Of a stretch of 64,000 nt of DNA, positions 20,047 through 27,131 are shown one piece after another (position 1 is the first letter of the stretch; each line of letters begins with the position of its first letter). A program made the translations under genes and the position numbers. The notes beneath the pieces were generated by a model, which was given only the letters and a program-made list of their open reading frames with translations, did not search any database and was not told where the DNA came from. The stretch is from Desulfoscipio sp. XC116 (lineage in GTDB: Bacteria > Bacillota > Desulfotomaculia > Desulfotomaculales > Desulfallaceae): NCBI RefSeq assembly GCF_039851975.1, contig NZ_CP156660.1:1302001-1366000 (forward strand). The letters run 5' to 3'.

Positions 20047-20344
20047 AAACTTACCATCCTTCCATTCTACAATGATGATTTAAGCAGCTAATTACTTATT
20101 ATACTAAAAAAATGTAATTCGGCAATAAAAAAATTCGATTATGGTATTTGGTCATTTTTATTGGATGATTATTGATTAAGTGGCAAATTATTAAACTAAT
20201 AAAATAGATAATCTCAATAAAGCCTGCATTGGCCAAGATTTAATGATTTTTTTTAAAAATTTTACAGTAAATTGACCTAAAATACAGATTGCAGTTCTTA
20301 TACCAACGAGTATTATTGTATTGATAATATAAATTTAAAAATTA

Positions 20345-20470
20345 ATACGCTTAATCCAATTGGAGCGGGGGAACCAACTTTTGGGGGTGAATCTCACTTG
20401 TGTGGGTAGGGTTACTCTTTCGACCCGAATCCGTCAGCTAACCTCGTCAGCGTTGAAAGGGGCTAAACGG
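20345..20470 (+). ncRNA. c-di-AMP riboswitch (ydaO-yuaA type)
   Basis: The conserved ydaO blocks are present in order: GAGCGGGGGAACCAA, GGGGGTGAATCT, GTAGGGTTAC, TTTCGACCCGAATCCGTCAG and CTAACCTCGTCAGCG. It lies on the same strand as, and about 270 bases upstream of, a YdaO/KimA-type potassium importer, the classical target. With the terminator at 20525-20556 it fits an OFF switch in which c-di-AMP binding stops transcription. Confidence 0.92.
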
Positions 20471-20734: not shown

Positions 20735-22633
20735 ATGTTTGGCGGATTAGGTCGCCGTATACTGGGTTCAAAGATTGAAACAAATCAACTCGGCAATGAA
20801 AGATTTAGTGTTTTTTGGGGCCTGCCAATACTGGCAAGCGATGCCATCTCTTCTGTAGCTTATGCGGTGGATGAGATCCTCTGGGCTTTAATACCGGCAA
20901 TTGGTATGCTTTCATATTTATGGGTACCTGAAATCGCTGGAGTTATAATTTTTCTTTTATTGGTATTAACCGTCTCCTACCGTCAAATTGTTGCAACATA
21001 CCCCGGAGGTGGGGGGGCTTATATCGTTGCCAGGGAAAACCTTAAACCTATTTACGGTCTAATTGTGGGGGCTTCCCTATCCATCGATTATATCTTAACT
21101 GTGGCTGTTAGTATCTGTGCTGGAACAGCTGCAATTATTTCAGCTTTTCCTTTGCTGCAGACACATCGGGTGGCCATAGCCATAACTATAATTACTCTTA
21201 TGGTTATTGGCAATCTAAGAGGTATAAGAGAATCATCCAGGTGGTTTAGTCTTCCAACTTATGCTTTTATGGTGGCTATTTTAACACTTATATTCACAGG
21301 TATCTTAAAAGGCGGGGATAATATTGCCGGTTTGCCCAACACGCAAGTATCGGATATAGCATTTGGCACACAGGCGGTTACAATCTTTTTGCTTCTTAAG
21401 GCATTTTCCTCCGGGTGTGCCGCTTTGACCGGAGTTGAAGCCATCGCTGATGCAGCGCCTAATTTCAAAGAGCCGGCTGCCAAAAATGCTAAAAAAGCTT
21501 ATATTCTATTAGCATGTGCGGTGCTTCTGACGTTTGGTGGAATTGTCCATCTAAGCACAATTTACCATCCCGTACCGTCTGCCGAGCAAACCGTGATCAG
21601 CCAGATTGCCACGGATGTATTTGGCAGGGGGGTGATGTACTACATCATTCAGAGTACCACGGCAATTCTTTTGGCAATGGCCGCCAATACAGCCTTTGCC
21701 GGATTTCCAACCCTGTTTTCCGTTATTGCACGCGATGGTTACGCTCCAAGGCAGTTTACCCTGCGGGGACACCGGCTGAATTACTCCAATGGCATCATAG
21801 CACTGGGTTTAATGGCCATACTGCTGGTTGTTCTTTTTCATGGTGATACACACTTGCTTATACCATTATACGCGGTAGGTGTGTTCACTTCGTTTACTCT
21901 TGCTCAATTTGGCATGCTGTTTCGCTGGTTTCGCTTAAAACCTGAAGGTTGGTATATTAAGGCCATCATTAACGGTGTGGGTGCGGTGATTACCCTGGTA
22001 GCGGTAATTATTATTGGCTTTGAGAAATTTACTGCGGGAGCCTGGATAGTATTCTTGGTGATTCCAATACTTGTTGCTTTGATGTTAAAGGTAAAGAACC
22101 ACTATAATGTTATAGCCAAGCAATTGGACATTCCCAATGAGCACTTGAGCGATATGTCCCTTGACGCCAAATATGAACATCATTTTATAATACCGATCGC
22201 CAGTCTTAACGGTTCGGTCATATTGGCCTTAAGGTATGCCAGAAGCCTTACAGCCAATGTCGTTGCCTTCCACGTTGAACCATACGAAGGGGAGGCCGAT
22301 AAACTGAGACAGAAATGGTCGAAACTCAAAACAGATGTTGAGCTGTTTGTTAAGCCTTCTCCATTTAGAGAGATTATCGGCCCGCTTGTGGAATTTATTG
22401 ATTCTGAAGAACATGCATCCAAACAGGGAGATATGATAACCGTATTATTGCCCCAGTTTATTGTATCAAAGAGATGGGAAGTATTGCTGCATAACAACAC
22501 CAGTATTTTTATTGCTAGATCCCTGTTTGATAAAAGGAATGTTACATTGGCGGTTCTGCCTTTTTATCTGGAAGACCTGCCGGGCAGCAGAAGGCGGAAA
22601 AAATCCAATGGCAGCAAGAATGGTGAGAGTTAG
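20735..22633 (+). CDS. kimA: KimA/YdaO-type potassium importer (APC superfamily)
   Basis: The 632-residue protein has about 12 membrane helices followed by a cytoplasmic C-terminal domain from about residue 460. The ASDAISSVAYAVDEIL start of helix 1 and the CAALTGVEAIADAAPNF segment match the KUP-like KimA family, which imports K+ with protons. GGGAG precedes ATG 20735. The upstream c-di-AMP riboswitch with terminator indicates shut-off when c-di-AMP (a high-potassium signal) is abundant; the B. subtilis orthologue is controlled the same way and is also inhibited by c-di-AMP at the protein level. Confidence 0.92.
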   Translation: MFGGLGRRILGSKIETNQLGNERFSVFWGLPILASDAISSVAYAVDEILWALIPAIGMLSYLWVPEIAGVIIFLLLVLTVSYRQIVATYPGGGGAYIVARENLKPIYGLIVGASLSIDYILTVAVSICAGTAAIISAFPLLQTHRVAIAITIITLMVIGNLRGIRESSRWFSLPTYAFMVAILTLIFTGILKGGDNIAGLPNTQVSDIAFGTQAVTIFLLLKAFSSGCAALTGVEAIADAAPNFKEPAAKNAKKAYILLACAVLLTFGGIVHLSTIYHPVPSAEQTVISQIATDVFGRGVMYYIIQSTTAILLAMAANTAFAGFPTLFSVIARDGYAPRQFTLRGHRLNYSNGIIALGLMAILLVVLFHGDTHLLIPLYAVGVFTSFTLAQFGMLFRWFRLKPEGWYIKAIINGVGAVITLVAVIIIGFEKFTAGAWIVFLVIPILVALMLKVKNHYNVIAKQLDIPNEHLSDMSLDAKYEHHFIIPIASLNGSVILALRYARSLTANVVAFHVEPYEGEADKLRQKWSKLKTDVELFVKPSPFREIIGPLVEFIDSEEHASKQGDMITVLLPQFIVSKRWEVLLHNNTSIFIARSLFDKRNVTLAVLPFYLEDLPGSRRRKKSNGSKNGES

Positions 22634-22664: not shown

Positions 22665-22699
22665 CACAGCACCTCTAAATAGAGGTGCTGCGTTTCTTA
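22665..22699 (+). terminator. Terminator after kimA
   Basis: CAGCACCTCT-aaat-AGAGGTGCTG perfect stem, then CGTTTCTT. It also lies close to the end of the converging aldolase gene. Confidence 0.75.
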
Positions 22700-22743: not shown

Positions 22744-23550
22744 CTATTCGTTATTTTGCCTTTCCGCGAGCAGTTCGAATGCCTCCTGTGCGGCCAGATT
22801 CCGGTGGATAATACCGTCTACCGCGGCCAGCAGCGCCTCGGGATGGGGGCTTTGCCAGATATTCCTTCCCATAACAATGCCCCGGGCCCCGCCCTGGATG
22901 GCGCCGTGCACCATTTTCAGAGTGTCCAGGTCGGTTTCACACTTGGGGCCGCCGGCAATGAGCACCGGCACGGGGCAACCCGCCACTACCCGGTCAAAAT
23001 TCCTTTCGGTATAATAGGTTTTTACCAGGTCGACGCCGTGCTCTGCCGCTACTCTGGCGCCCAGGGCGATGAAGCGGGGGTCTTGCTTTTTGTCCTCGTT
23101 GATTTTGCCTACTCCCACCACACCCAGCAAGGGCATATTCCAGCGGTGGCACTGCCCGGCTACCCCGGCCAGGTTAATTAGCGTTTCATGCTCATAGGGA
23201 GAACCAATAAAAGCCGACACGGCTACTCCGTCAGCCCCCAGCGCCAGGCCTTCTTCTACCGTGCCGGTGAGCCCCTCCCTGGTCAGTTCCGGTCCCGCAA
23301 TGGTGGCCCCGCCGCTGATGCGCAGCAGGGTACCCGGGCAGCCCCGGGGATTAAAGGCATATTTGAAAATCCCTTTGGTTAACAGCCAGGTATCCACCAA
23401 TCCCGTGGCATCCAACCGGTCAATGGTCTCTTTAATGTTTAGAAGGCCCGTCATGGGTCCCAGCGCCATGCCGTGATCCACGGCCACTACCAGCGAGCGC
23501 CCGGTCTCGCCGCGAAATATTCTGCGCAGGCGCATTTGCATGCCGTCCAT
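22744..23550 (-). CDS. DhnA-type class I aldolase (FbaB / ADH synthase / LsrF family)
   Basis: ATG 23550 follows GAAAGGGGA at seven bases; the longer frame starts inside the upstream gene. The 268-residue TIM barrel has AVDHGMALGP (Asp25), the Schiff-base lysine in DLVKTYY (Lys177), the sugar-phosphate-binding VLIAGGPKC and GIVMGRNIWQ segments. The family includes archaeal-type fructose-bisphosphate aldolase and 2-amino-3,7-dideoxy-heptulosonate synthase. It is the last gene of a four-gene operon with a GHMP-like, a TrpF-like and an alcohol dehydrogenase gene. No 3-dehydroquinate synthase II is present, so a shikimate role is unproven; a C-C bond step in a sugar-phosphate pathway is likely. 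Confidence 0.85.
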   Translation of the reverse strand: MDGMQMRLRRIFRGETGRSLVVAVDHGMALGPMTGLLNIKETIDRLDATGLVDTWLLTKGIFKYAFNPRGCPGTLLRISGGATIAGPELTREGLTGTVEEGLALGADGVAVSAFIGSPYEHETLINLAGVAGQCHRWNMPLLGVVGVGKINEDKKQDPRFIALGARVAAEHGVDLVKTYYTERNFDRVVAGCPVPVLIAGGPKCETDLDTLKMVHGAIQGGARGIVMGRNIWQSPHPEALLAAVDGIIHRNLAAQEAFELLAERQNNE

Positions 23551-23575
23551 TTGAAAATCCCCTTTCATCAAAGCG

Positions 23576-24610
23576 CTAGCTGAACAGCACAACGCCTTTA
23601 ATCATTTTTTGCTGCTTTACTTGATCCACCGCGTCCAAAAGATTATACAGGCTGAAGCGGTGGGAAATCATGTCCTCAACTTCAATAGCTCCGCTGGTAA
23701 TCAGCTCCAGAGCGAGATGAAAGTCTGCCGGAGTTGAGGCGAAGGTGCCGGTAAGGGTAATTTCCCCGTAGTGCAGCCAGCGAGGGTCTATGGTAAGCGG
23801 CTGCCCCGCCGGCGGCCCGCCGAATATATTGAATATGCCGCCCTTGCGCACGGCAGGTAAATACTTTTCCATTATCGCAGGGATACCCAATGCGGCAATT
23901 ACCAGATCGGCACCCCGTCCGCCGGTAATTTCCCCAACCCGGGACACTAAATCACTATTGTTGGTATTGATGCAATAGTTCGCCCCCATGCGGCGGGCTG
24001 TGTTCAACCGCTCTTCCAGTACATCGGCCATAATCACCTGCGCACCTGCCCATTGCGCCGCTTTCAGGTGAAACAGTCCCATTGGGCCGGCGCCGATTAC
24101 AACTGCCACGTCCCCCGCGGCTATATCCGCCGTTCTGGCCGCGGCCAGGCAGCAGGAAAGGGGCTCGGCTAGGGCCGCCTGTTCGAAGGAGATCTGCGGC
24201 TTCAGCTCACTGACTCCACCAATGGCCACTATTTGACCCGGGATGCGCACAAACTCGGCAAAGGCGCCGTCAGCGCCGTGCCCCAGCCCGAATTCACTTT
24301 CACAAAGGTTATGCCTTCCCCGGCGGCAGTAAAAACAATCGCCGCATACTGCAATGGGGTAAGCGGCCACCCGTTGCCCCGGGATAAGTTCCGACACACC
24401 GCGGCCTATTTCGTATATTTCTCCCGCAACCTCGTGGCCCAAAATGGTGGGCAAGTTCTTGGGCAATCCCTGGCCCAGCAGCATTTTAACATCAGTGGCG
24501 CAAATCCCCGCAGCCCGCACTTTGATGATCACTTCCCCGGGAGCGGGCCGGGGACGGGGCACATCTTCAATGCGTATATCGTTCATACCATGTACTACGG
24601 CTGCTTTCAT
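23576..24610 (-). CDS. Zinc-dependent alcohol/polyol dehydrogenase (MDR family)
   Basis: The 344-residue protein has the catalytic zinc pattern (CATDVKM, GHEVAGE), the structural zinc cluster CGDCFYCRRGRHNLC, and the NAD(P)-binding VVIGAGPMGLFHLKAAQWAG with DV at the end of the second strand, which suggests NAD. It resembles sorbitol/threonine dehydrogenases and would oxidise a secondary alcohol or reduce a ketone. Its ATG overlaps the stop of the TrpF-like gene as ATGA, and its stop is 25 bases before the aldolase start. The substrate probably belongs to the pathway of this operon. Confidence 0.85.
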   Translation of the reverse strand: MKAAVVHGMNDIRIEDVPRPRPAPGEVIIKVRAAGICATDVKMLLGQGLPKNLPTILGHEVAGEIYEIGRGVSELIPGQRVAAYPIAVCGDCFYCRRGRHNLCESEFGLGHGADGAFAEFVRIPGQIVAIGGVSELKPQISFEQAALAEPLSCCLAAARTADIAAGDVAVVIGAGPMGLFHLKAAQWAGAQVIMADVLEERLNTARRMGANYCINTNNSDLVSRVGEITGGRGADLVIAALGIPAIMEKYLPAVRKGGIFNIFGGPPAGQPLTIDPRWLHYGEITLTGTFASTPADFHLALELITSGAIEVEDMISHRFSLYNLLDAVDQVKQQKMIKGVVLFS

Positions 24611-25308
24611 CCTTGTCCATTCCTTTCGTTATTAGCTTCCCTGACTGCCTGCATCAAGGCTTTAAGTTTATCGGGGCTCTTTTTGCCCGGCTGTGCCTCA
24701 ACTCCCGAGCAGAGATCAATGCCGTCCGGGTTCACTGCTTTAATGGCCGCTCCGACATTGGCCGGGTCGATTCCTCCCGCCAAAAACACGGGCACCGGGC
24801 AGTCTTCTTTCAGTTCCCGTGCTATCTGCCAGTCGCTTACCCGGCCCGTGCCGCCATACCTTTGCGTACCGTCTACCACTGCCGCCGTATCCGGGACAAT
24901 TACATCGGCACCCGCCGCGCAGCCGGCCCTTATCTGCGCCGATATAAATTCCCGGTTAGACCCTTCGCCTGCAGGGGGCAGGTGCAGGGACTGCCAGCAT
25001 TCAATCCGGGGGAACTCCTTTTTACACCAGGTGATAATTTTTTGCGCCGGGTTAAGAAATTGCAAGGCATGGGGATGCAATGACTCCACCAAATACTGAA
25101 TCCGCTCCGTGGATATCTGGTACACCAGTGCCACTGCGGGCCGGGGGGCGCGGGAAAAGATTTCTCGGGCCCCTTCAACAGTGAGAGAGCGGGGAGAGTA
25201 GGGCACTTCTACCACCACTCCCAGGTAATCCGCCCCTTCTCCGGCGGCCAGCAGTGCATCTCCAACATTGGTAATCCCACATATTTTAACTTTGCAACCA
25301 TCCTTCAT
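24607..25308 (-). CDS. TrpF-like phosphoribosylanthranilate isomerase paralog
   Basis: The 233-residue TIM barrel keeps the TrpF signature KICGIT with the catalytic Cys10, Asp140 (VIVPD), GGTG (152-155), DW (159-160), FLAGGI (176-180) and GIDLCSGVE. The usual QLHG of strand 3 is replaced by LQFLN at about residues 82-86, so it is divergent. TrpF performs an Amadori rearrangement of N-(phosphoribosyl)anthranilate. No other trp genes are in the operon, so a related isomerisation of a ribosylated amine is a reasonable inference, not a demonstrated one. It overlaps the GHMP-like gene by 23 bases and the dehydrogenase by 4. Confidence 0.8.
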   Translation of the reverse strand: MKDGCKVKICGITNVGDALLAAGEGADYLGVVVEVPYSPRSLTVEGAREIFSRAPRPAVALVYQISTERIQYLVESLHPHALQFLNPAQKIITWCKKEFPRIECWQSLHLPPAGEGSNREFISAQIRAGCAAGADVIVPDTAAVVDGTQRYGGTGRVSDWQIARELKEDCPVPVFLAGGIDPANVGAAIKAVNPDGIDLCSGVEAQPGKKSPDKLKALMQAVREANNERNGQG

Positions 25309-26506
25309 GCTGATAAGTCCTTTCTTTGCCGCTTTCCAACACCCGTGCGCCGGTGTTATCTATATGCGTTTCGATAATTCTGTTGGCCGGTACATTTTCC
25401 GCTGCCAAAAACTTTAACATGCGCCGGTAAACCTCATCATTGCGGGTTAACGCATAAACCGTGGGTCCTACTGAGCTCATGCCCACCACCTCGGCACCGA
25501 TTTGCCTCAGGCTGCCGATGTACCGGTAAATGGGCGCGCCGCTCAGCCCGTGCTGCTCGCATTCGGCCCGTTTGGAGCCCAGAAAAGCCAGGTCAAAGAT
25601 CGCGTTGCCTATCCCTTTAAGATCGCCTCTGACCATAGCGGGCAGCAGGTCCAGTAAAACGATTTGCGATTTGGTGCCGCACTGCAGGTTGTCCAGGTAC
25701 CTGGCCCGGCGCATAAGCAGTTCCACTTCCGATTGAGCGGCGGTGTCCTTGCCGGTAAATTCATCTTCCAGGGTGGGCACATCGGGGATGACAATCAATG
25801 CCCGGGTGTCGGGTAAGGCGATGCGATAAATCAGCTCCATATCATCGGTGCCCAGCACCATGCCGCCGTTGATGCCGGTCATTGCCCCCAGGCCGGTCTC
25901 AAAGCCGCGAATCAGGCAGGCATTATTCAGTGGGCTTTCCTCACAGGCGTTAAAGCCCAGAATGCGTCGCAGTTCCCGATTATTGAAGGGCCGTCCCAGC
26001 ACTTCGTTAATTCCGACGCAGGCTGCGCACATGGATCCCGTGGAGGAACCCATACCCACATGGCGGCGTCCGTGGTCATACAGCTCGATTTCCAGGCCGC
26101 CGGTGTAGCCCAGAATCTCCTTGAAAACCCGGGCAAAGTGTCCGACAATAAGCGTGCGCTGTCCTTTAACCACTATGTCGGGTCTTTTGGTGGCCCGTAC
26201 CCGTACCCTAAAGTATATACCTACGGCAAAGCCGATGCCGCCTCCGCCGGGACGGGTGGTATTGAACCTGTTCATATCCAGTACCGAGGTGTGCAGGCGG
26301 GCCGGAACGGTAACTTCTACTTCCCCTTCTTCAACACTGGCTACCGTTCGGGGTTCCACGCTAAAATCCTGAGGGTAAACGATAAAATCTTTTTGCCCCG
26401 GCTCAAATTCCTCCAATATTGTGGTAATGCGGTCAAAGGGCCCACCGATAATACCTATTTCAATAGTTTGCTTGCGCGGGGTCAAAACCGCCTGGTTAAT
26501 TACCAT
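25286..26506 (-). CDS. GHMP-kinase-fold protein related to beta-RFAP synthase
   Basis: First gene of the operon; GGGAGGAT precedes ATG 26506. The 406-residue protein has an N-terminal segment of about 70 residues, then a GHMP-type domain: VTVPARLHTSVLDMN, TTRPGGGGIGFAVG, the ATP/phosphate loop-like HVGMGSSTGSMCAACVG, and a late GAEVVGMSSVGPTVYA segment. This pattern is closest to archaeal beta-ribofuranosylaminobenzene 5'-phosphate synthase (COG1907), which couples PRPP with p-aminobenzoate in methanopterin synthesis. It is longer than the archaeal enzymes (about 330 residues). It could instead be a sugar or inositol kinase-like enzyme. Confidence 0.7.
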   Translation of the reverse strand: MVINQAVLTPRKQTIEIGIIGGPFDRITTILEEFEPGQKDFIVYPQDFSVEPRTVASVEEGEVEVTVPARLHTSVLDMNRFNTTRPGGGGIGFAVGIYFRVRVRATKRPDIVVKGQRTLIVGHFARVFKEILGYTGGLEIELYDHGRRHVGMGSSTGSMCAACVGINEVLGRPFNNRELRRILGFNACEESPLNNACLIRGFETGLGAMTGINGGMVLGTDDMELIYRIALPDTRALIVIPDVPTLEDEFTGKDTAAQSEVELLMRRARYLDNLQCGTKSQIVLLDLLPAMVRGDLKGIGNAIFDLAFLGSKRAECEQHGLSGAPIYRYIGSLRQIGAEVVGMSSVGPTVYALTRNDEVYRRMLKFLAAENVPANRIIETHIDNTGARVLESGKERTYQHEGWLQS

Positions 26507-27131
26507 ACTACTATCCTCCCGTATGATTATAGATTAATTAATTGAAATTAATCTGCCTGCAAACGTTTCATTTAATAAATCAAACTAACATAGATAATCA
26601 ACTATCATAGATGATTTGCGTTATATGCAAGCAATATTGTAACATTCGTTGGCGCTAATAATGCTTGATACTGTTTAATATCGCCTCCTTGTCTTTAATA
26701 ACGTACCTAAAAACAAAAAAACACGCTCCGAAAGACGCAGCGTGGCTTATGATGCATAGGGCAGAGGGTTTTAAGACTGCTTAATAACAAAAAAACACCC
26801 CCGCAGGGGTATGCAAAGGCAATGTATGAATAACCGGCTCAGATCAAAACACCGATTCCATACTGCAATACTATCGTAAAATTCTAGACTTTGCCCTAAT
26901 TACCATCCTGCCATGCTACGAATTTATTATAAACCGACCGGGCAGTTATGACAATATGAATACACATTTTTTCGGTTGGCCACCATCGGACCCGGAAAAG
27001 TTATGCACAGGTAATAGAAAAAATTGTCGAAAATTATAATAAAGCGGAAACAAAAAGGAGTGTCGTCATAACGGTTGTTTCCTTATGGGACTTAGTTTCT
27101 GATTAGGCATTTTGAGACCTCAGCGTAGTTT
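26507..27131 (-). promoter_or_regulatory. Leader/intergenic region of the four-gene operon with tandem terminator-like hairpins
   Basis: No convincing gene. On the minus strand two hairpins followed by T7 tracts lie in tandem: ACCCC-tgc-GGGGT at about 26796-26815 and CACGCT...AGCGTG at about 26715-26746. They could end a short transcript or form a leader attenuator. Nearer the operon are a repeated ATCTATGAT/ATTATCTATG element (about 26590-26615) and a strong AAGGAGG at about 26690 followed by a possible ATT-started 24-codon leader. None of these is proven. Confidence 0.35.

Follow-up and report, generated by a model that had tools for sequence, protein, structure and literature searches.

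A conserved four-gene operon in Desulfoscipio joins an RFAP-synthase-like protein to TrpF-like, dehydrogenase and aldolase partners and shares its leader with aromatic amino-acid genes

Results

A four-gene operon and its leader

We analysed a stretch of 64,000 nucleotides from Desulfoscipio sp. XC116 (assembly GCF_039851975.1, contig NZ_CP156660.1, positions 1,302,001 to 1,366,000 of the forward strand), hereafter the window. A first-pass annotation, made from the letters alone, had singled out four same-strand genes as an undescribed pathway. Open-reading-frame (ORF) analysis upholds this layout, with four ORFs on the minus strand separated by overlaps of 23 and 4 bases and by one gap of 25 bases. 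By family they encode an RFAP-synthase-like GHMP protein, a phosphoribosylanthranilate isomerase (PRAI/TrpF), a zinc dehydrogenase of the medium-chain dehydrogenase/reductase (MDR) class and an aldolase of the DeoC/LacD (DhnA) family. Genes and predicted transcription signals are as follows.

25286..26506, minus strand: RFAP-synthase/ForT-like GHMP-fold protein; 406 aa, with an N-terminal extension of about 60 residues
24607..25308, minus strand: TrpF-like (PRAI) isomerase; 233 aa, 23-nt overlap with the GHMP gene
23576..24610, minus strand: zinc-dependent MDR dehydrogenase (sorbitol/threonine dehydrogenase-like); 344 aa, 4-nt overlap with the TrpF-like gene
22744..23550, minus strand: LsrF/DhnA-like class I aldolase; 268 aa, Schiff-base Lys177 invariant
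22665..22692, minus strand: strong terminator-like hairpin downstream of the aldolase gene; 12 pairs, then a T-rich tract
26926..26954, minus strand: predicted sigma-70 promoter, TTGTCA-17-TATAAT, 11 of 12 matches
26903..26919, minus strand: leader repeats GTAGCATGG-CAGGATGG, two 8-nt units of the form YAGNAYGG, with an extra unit at 26865-26858
26796..26821, minus strand: intrinsic terminator-like hairpin closing the leader, a candidate attenuator

The aldolase start was taken as the ATG that follows GAAAGGGG, which gives 268 aa; with the TTG start of the ORF list (23592), the gene would overlap that of the dehydrogenase. The leader terminator lies about 85 nt after the two repeats and about 290 nt upstream of the first gene. 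The operon has a G+C content of 56.6%, compared with 39-42% on both flanks, and nearly all other copies likewise exceed their own surroundings.

Conservation and distribution

A homologue scan with one genome per species yielded 41 other loci that carry the GHMP gene. The first-pass annotation had proposed looking for co-occurrence of the four families in finished genomes, and this is what we find: the full set is kept together, in the same order and on the same strand, at 28 of the 41 loci, with intact copies in Bacillota and Thermodesulfobacteriota, that is, in at least two phyla. The arrangement is therefore not a product of chance. Among the remaining loci, a contig end cuts eight, four gammaproteobacterial loci hold only the GHMP gene and a convergent TrpF-like gene, and one Chloroflexi locus holds the GHMP gene alone. 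In the Chloroflexi genome, an LsrF-like aldolase and a zinc dehydrogenase are adjacent on a different contig (L106:6397-8296). Clustering of all neighbour genes across the 41 loci gave no fifth recurring family.

Occurrence is patchy. Strong matches were found in 10 of 60 relatives, in 3 of 199 genomes across the phylum and in 2 of the 7 genomes of the genus; in the Desulfobacter phylum the operon's GHMP subfamily is present in 3 of 345. In the GHMP tree the gammaproteobacterial copies are nested with high support among those of Desulfobacterota, which suggests that they were gained by transfer. A plasmid search gave no match to the operon. Literature searches on beta-RFAP synthase (RFAPS) together with TrpF, or with sulfate reducers, returned nothing relevant, and the literature searched contained no described function for a four-enzyme pathway of this kind. 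It is thus well supported that the locus is a real, conserved and undescribed pathway operon, each part of which is distantly related to known enzymes.

The GHMP protein resembles RFAP synthase and ForT

The GHMP protein scores 82.8 and 71.9 bits against models of RFAP synthase and 32.4 bits against homoserine kinase. RFAPS models match all 35 GHMP homologues collected, with best E-values of 2e-27 versus 1e-10 for homoserine kinase, and the C-nucleoside synthase ForT is the top match in the Protein Data Bank (PDB) for the profile of these 35 sequences (7e-8). In an AlphaFold model (pLDDT 82, pTM 0.85), the predicted structure is nearest to ForT (Z 28.1, 296 residues aligned, 3.0 Å), followed by homoserine kinase (Z 25.6). 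The tree places the protein on the RFAPS side of homoserine kinase with weak support (77/12) and long branches. Grouping with homoserine- or mevalonate-type kinases, which would have spoken against the first-pass proposal, is therefore not what model scores, profile and fold favour.

Phosphoribosyl pyrophosphate (PRPP) is bound by R19 and H99 of ForT, and binding of 4-aminobenzoate in Methanothermobacter thermautotrophicus MTH0830 needs D19 and R26 (PMC8183095, PMC6787355). The counterparts of ForT R19 and H99 and of MTH0830 D19 are R70, H149 and D77, all invariant in the 35 homologues, and that of MTH0830 R26 is R85, kept in 31 of them. The RFAPS motifs PARLH..LD.N....R..GGGG are likewise invariant or almost so. 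The protein thus shares with beta-RFAP synthase (MptG of methanogens and of bacterial makers of tetrahydromethanopterin, H4MPT) the GHMP fold, the motif residues R70, D77, R85 and H149 and a C-terminal GPT motif; unlike that enzyme it has the N-terminal extension and lies apart from the H4MPT cluster. ForT, with PyfQ a C-nucleoside synthase, is its closest solved structure; identity to it is about 20%, ForT Arg135 lacks a clear match by sequence, and no formycin or pyrazofurin genes lie near the operon. By sequence and model we assign the protein as RFAPS/ForT-like, outside the curated RFAPS family.

The three partner enzymes

The TrpF-like protein matches PF00697 above cut-off (82.7 bits). 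Its Cys10 and Asp140, the predicted catalytic pair, and its substrate Arg40 (TrpF Cys7, Asp126 and Arg36) are invariant in 21 of 21 copies. It differs from TrpF in falling under all TrpF equivalog cut-offs, in lying outside a trp operon, in its GHMP partner and in having QFL in place of the QLHG motif. A role in tryptophan synthesis was ruled out: a complete trp operon elsewhere in the genome (at 3.23 Mb) has a regular trpF of its own, so that the operon's TrpF-like gene does not belong to a sole trp pathway.

The dehydrogenase contains ADH_N and ADH_zinc_N domains, with the structural-zinc cysteines C89, C92, C95 and C103 invariant, and its nearest types are threonine and sorbitol dehydrogenases. 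For the aldolase, LsrF is the best sequence model (257.8 bits, compared with 233 and 194 for ADH synthase) and the best PDB match, although the score lies under the LsrF cut-off (NF006081, 297 bits). Its Lys177 corresponds to the LsrF lysine that is Ala in PDB entry 4p2v and is invariant in 20 copies; according to its title, 4p2v shows LsrF with P-HPD as ligand. Across the 41 loci, none of the lsr partner families (LsrK, LsrG or transporter) is a recurrent neighbour of the operon. By sequence the aldolase is closer to LsrF, a C-C thiolase, than to the shikimate-type ADH synthase.

A leader shared with aromatic amino-acid genes

Each of the 19 Bacillota copies tested is preceded by two adjacent repeat units with 0-2 mismatches, even though the genes further upstream are not the same. 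In other Bacillota copies a -10-like element precedes the repeats at the same place, and a hairpin with a T-run follows at the matching relative position. An exact two-unit search of ten genomes returned 20 sites versus 3 for the reversed pattern; the 20 include all 8 operon leaders tested, and the two same-genus genomes that lack the operon had no site. Exact-repeat matches within coding or repeated DNA were discounted (for example, three identical sites in one genome, G006). A one-mismatch copy also occurs in the window at 20053-20070 (minus strand), directly before a lactate-permease-like gene and with no terminator between; it is probably a chance match.

The same arrangement of repeats and terminator precedes the gene for DAHP synthase, followed by that for TyrA, in four genomes (the source genome, G000, and G012, G039 and G042), and in three of them AroA is present too. 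With a background of a handful of sites per genome, four such matches are very unlikely to be chance. The leader also stands ahead of an ABC_sub_bind transporter gene and a Peripla_BP_6 gene. It thus ties the operon to aromatic amino-acid genes, a connection that the first-pass annotation had no means of seeing.

An Rfam search gave no significant match to a known riboswitch in the leader. A candidate leader helix between repeats and terminator had a pairing score of 15.2 within species, compared with 12.9 +/- 2.9 for mismatched species. TRAP was considered as a candidate binder of the 8-nt units: a search of 14 genomes found its gene in 13, but the trp operon of the source genome has a typical TRAP leader (GAG/UAG repeats and a terminator) upstream of trpE (C1:3226000-3240000); the period of those repeats is unlike that of the 8-nt units described here.

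Genomic context of related GHMP genes

Seven Desulfobacterota genomes carry a second GHMP subfamily, with an identity of about 40%. Clusters of phenylphosphate synthase and carboxylase genes turn phenol into 4-hydroxybenzoate in anaerobic phenol degradation, and the second GHMP gene clusters with genes for the carboxylase (alpha 689 and beta 647 bits in one locus, L098, above cut-offs). These clusters also hold delta- and gamma-like subunits, UbiX, a PaaK-type ligase, a phenol-pathway porin and a two-component system. PpsA/PpsB-like proteins lie in the same cluster in two wider regions (G334 and G436), which ruled out the second GHMP protein as a replacement phenol kinase. A conserved protein of about 181 aa that belongs to no known family adjoins the PaaK-type ligase in the second-GHMP clusters (L098-L104, L121-L124).

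In a third GHMP subfamily, too, a TrpF-like gene follows the GHMP gene. Close to the GHMP gene, two gammaproteobacterial loci (L026 and L030) encode a cytochrome c and an FAD-linked oxidase, with a UbiD at L030 as well. From the sister clusters, the third subfamily and the gammaproteobacterial contexts together, the core that recurs is the GHMP and TrpF-like pair, and aromatic acids are the common theme.

The source genome itself encodes PaaK, IorA and IorB in a row with an aminotransferase gene upstream. Genes for tryptophan, shikimate and methanopterin synthesis lie elsewhere in this genome, outside the window, as does an archaeal-type H4MPT/methanofuran one-carbon cluster (C1:279000-306000; L059 and L126). 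Over cut-offs, the latter contains a canonical RFAPS, a Mpt_N methylene-H4MPT dehydrogenase, a formylmethanofuran dehydrogenase subunit, Ftr and Mch, together with an MfnB-like protein. It also encodes a protein of 594 aa (L059:4023-5807) with no match in Pfam or NCBIfam. Among the 60 relatives, RFAPS exceeds its cut-off in the source genome only, and the operon is found in 10. A part in H4MPT synthesis was ruled out, since the canonical RFAPS has its own, separate site and the presence of the operon does not follow that of RFAPS.

Beside the operon, the window carries a c-di-AMP riboswitch (109.6 bits; 20338-20467, plus strand) ahead of an AA_permease_2 transporter gene (20735-22633).

Discussion

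A proposed route from an aromatic acid

On the observed gene content, order, conservation, active-site residues, fold class and shared leader we build a pathway of which every substrate and product is predicted; evidence on the substrates comes solely from the leader regulon and the sister clusters. Gene order reads as reaction order. The starting compounds would be PRPP and a small aromatic carboxylate, our best guess being 4-hydroxybenzoate, with 4-aminobenzoate as the alternative. The RFAPS/ForT-like protein would attach the ring of an electron-rich aromatic acid to C1' of PRPP, releasing CO2 and pyrophosphate (PPi) and giving an aryl C-riboside 5-phosphate. The TrpF-like enzyme could then open the furanose and, through its Cys/Asp pair, carry out an Amadori-type (vinylogous) rearrangement to a 1-aryl-1-deoxyribulose 5-phosphate, the para-hydroxyl or para-amino group permitting ring opening by way of a quinone-methide-like state. 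Oxidation of the C4' hydroxyl by the zinc dehydrogenase would yield a 1-aryl homologue of P-HPD, the LsrF substrate, and cleavage of C2'-C3' with coenzyme A (CoA) by the LsrF-like aldolase would release an arylacetyl-CoA and dihydroxyacetone phosphate (DHAP).

We consider the core of this scheme, in which an aromatic acid is ribosylated from PRPP and a TrpF-type isomerization follows, to be probable. The full four-step sequence is our best explanation of the operon, at a probability of roughly 0.4, and arylacetyl-CoA as its end product is a tentative, on balance doubtful, suggestion. The undescribed four-gene pathway of the first-pass annotation holds with respect to joint conservation, the affinity of the GHMP protein and the separate trpF; its order of chemistry is coherent, but we infer it only.

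In Bacillota hosts the product may feed aromatic amino-acid synthesis, for example via indolepyruvate:ferredoxin oxidoreductase. Anaerobes have a PaaK/IorAB route by which external arylacetates are turned into aromatic amino acids. That route would use the predicted arylacetyl-CoA, and the PaaK-IorA-IorB and aminotransferase genes of the source genome could in principle convert it to an aromatic amino acid; the operon would differ in building the aryl-C2 unit from an aromatic carboxylate and a ribose carbon. With 4-hydroxybenzoate as the acid the product would be tyrosine, which is consistent with TyrA in the leader regulon. The net effect would be a one-carbon lengthening by a ribose carbon (aryl-COOH + PRPP + NAD+ + CoA -> aryl-CH2-CO-CoA + DHAP + CO2 + PPi + NADH), a shikimate-sparing way for anaerobes to reach tyrosine (or a different aromatic amino acid), controlled through a new attenuator shared with DAHP synthase; we regard this extension as speculative.

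Several points weigh against the four-step pathway. The GHMP protein falls far short of the curated beta-RFAP synthase cut-offs (71.9 versus 113.5 bits for TIGR00144 and 82.8 versus 328 bits for NF040726), and among the operon GHMP genes of the 60 relatives not one exceeds the TIGR00144 cut-off. In the profile alignment ForT Arg135, the 5'-phosphate residue, falls opposite Phe/Tyr185 after G184, where an insertion leaves the register unsure. It is because of these scores and of the want of a clear Arg135 counterpart that we place the protein outside the curated family, and PRPP binding is not assured for the same reasons. No assay of any enzyme from the operon's GHMP subfamily was found in the literature searched, and we know of no TrpF homologue that opens a C-riboside. 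In the TrpF-like partners of the gammaproteobacterial and third-subfamily GHMP proteins, a Tyr replaces the catalytic Cys and the Asp is kept:

L026:9231-9908: Tyr-for-Cys TrpF-like partner
L030:4798-5496: Tyr-for-Cys TrpF-like partner
L127:1456-2139: Tyr-for-Cys TrpF-like partner
L128:1809-2495: Tyr-for-Cys TrpF-like partner

The gammaproteobacterial hosts also lack the aldolase, and the pathway may therefore stop earlier there. Structure comparison does not separate LsrF from ADH synthase for the aldolase (Z 34.3 and 34.4, respectively). As for the leader, its repeats precede none of 15 copies in other phyla, the ABC substrate-binding genes that it does precede are not clearly aromatic, and PaaK was dropped as a regulon member after its repeat match proved no better than background.

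Other explanations

The same first two steps could also lead to a cofactor or C-nucleoside-type product, with the dehydrogenase acting as a reductase to form an aryl-pentitol phosphate like the methanopterin arm and the aldolase supplying a precursor, the end being an as yet unknown cofactor or signal. MptG and ForT, to which the GHMP protein is functionally most closely related, do make methanopterin and C-nucleosides; the structural tie of the aldolase extends to ADH synthase, which begins an alternative route to aromatics; and gammaproteobacteria retain just the GHMP and TrpF-like genes. However, no pterin-joining, ligase or DHQ-synthase-II gene is a conserved neighbour in the 41 loci, the operon is present in ten relatives as against one with RFAPS over cut-off, the aldolase scores higher as LsrF, and presence in only two of seven genus genomes is unlike an essential cofactor. 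We judge such a product unlikely, if worth keeping in mind. A closely related scheme, which we hold to be quite improbable, would have the GHMP protein phosphoribosylate the nitrogen of an aminobenzoate, the TrpF-like enzyme perform a normal Amadori reaction, and the dehydrogenase and aldolase release an N-aryl-glycyl-CoA and DHAP. It would suit the retention of Cys, Asp and the Arg equivalent to tPRAI Arg36, which we take to be the binder of the anthranilate carboxylate. To our knowledge, though, every characterized RFAPS/ForT enzyme forms a C-C bond with decarboxylation, and TrpD of the same genome already makes the N-riboside of anthranilate.

A true small-molecule kinase at the head of an ordinary sugar- or polyol-phosphate route (kinase, isomerase, dehydrogenase, aldolase) would account for the GHMP kinase Pfam domains, which exceed their cut-offs in the GHMP protein, and for homoserine kinase as the second fold match. 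The near-invariant RFAPS motifs and the better fit of RFAPS models argue otherwise, and a TrpF fold with Amadori residues is not the usual sugar isomerase; we think this very improbable. The operon might instead degrade or detoxify phenolic acids, since sister GHMP genes are part of phenol-degradation clusters that include a PAS kinase and a sigma-54 regulator, and an FAD-linked oxidase, cytochrome c and UbiD are encoded close to gammaproteobacterial copies. Yet spending PRPP on breakdown of an aromatic ring would be costly, Bacillota copies carry the leader of the biosynthetic DAHP synthase-TyrA genes, and the hosts include oxidizers of fatty acids and acetate that are not known for use of aromatics. 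A catabolic module is thus an improbable reading, and the four-step biosynthetic pathway is the one we prefer.

Implications

Sulfate reducers and syntrophs, some of them in culture, conserve this four-enzyme pathway, and the shared leader defines both a testable regulon and a cis-acting element unmatched in Rfam. If the predicted chemistry is true, the aldolase would act on a 1-aryl analogue of P-HPD, the LsrF fold would acquire a second function, and TrpF chemistry would gain a C-riboside substrate. The small class of enzymatic C-ribosylations would then reach beyond cofactors and antibiotics into primary metabolism, and aromatic amino acids would have another route.

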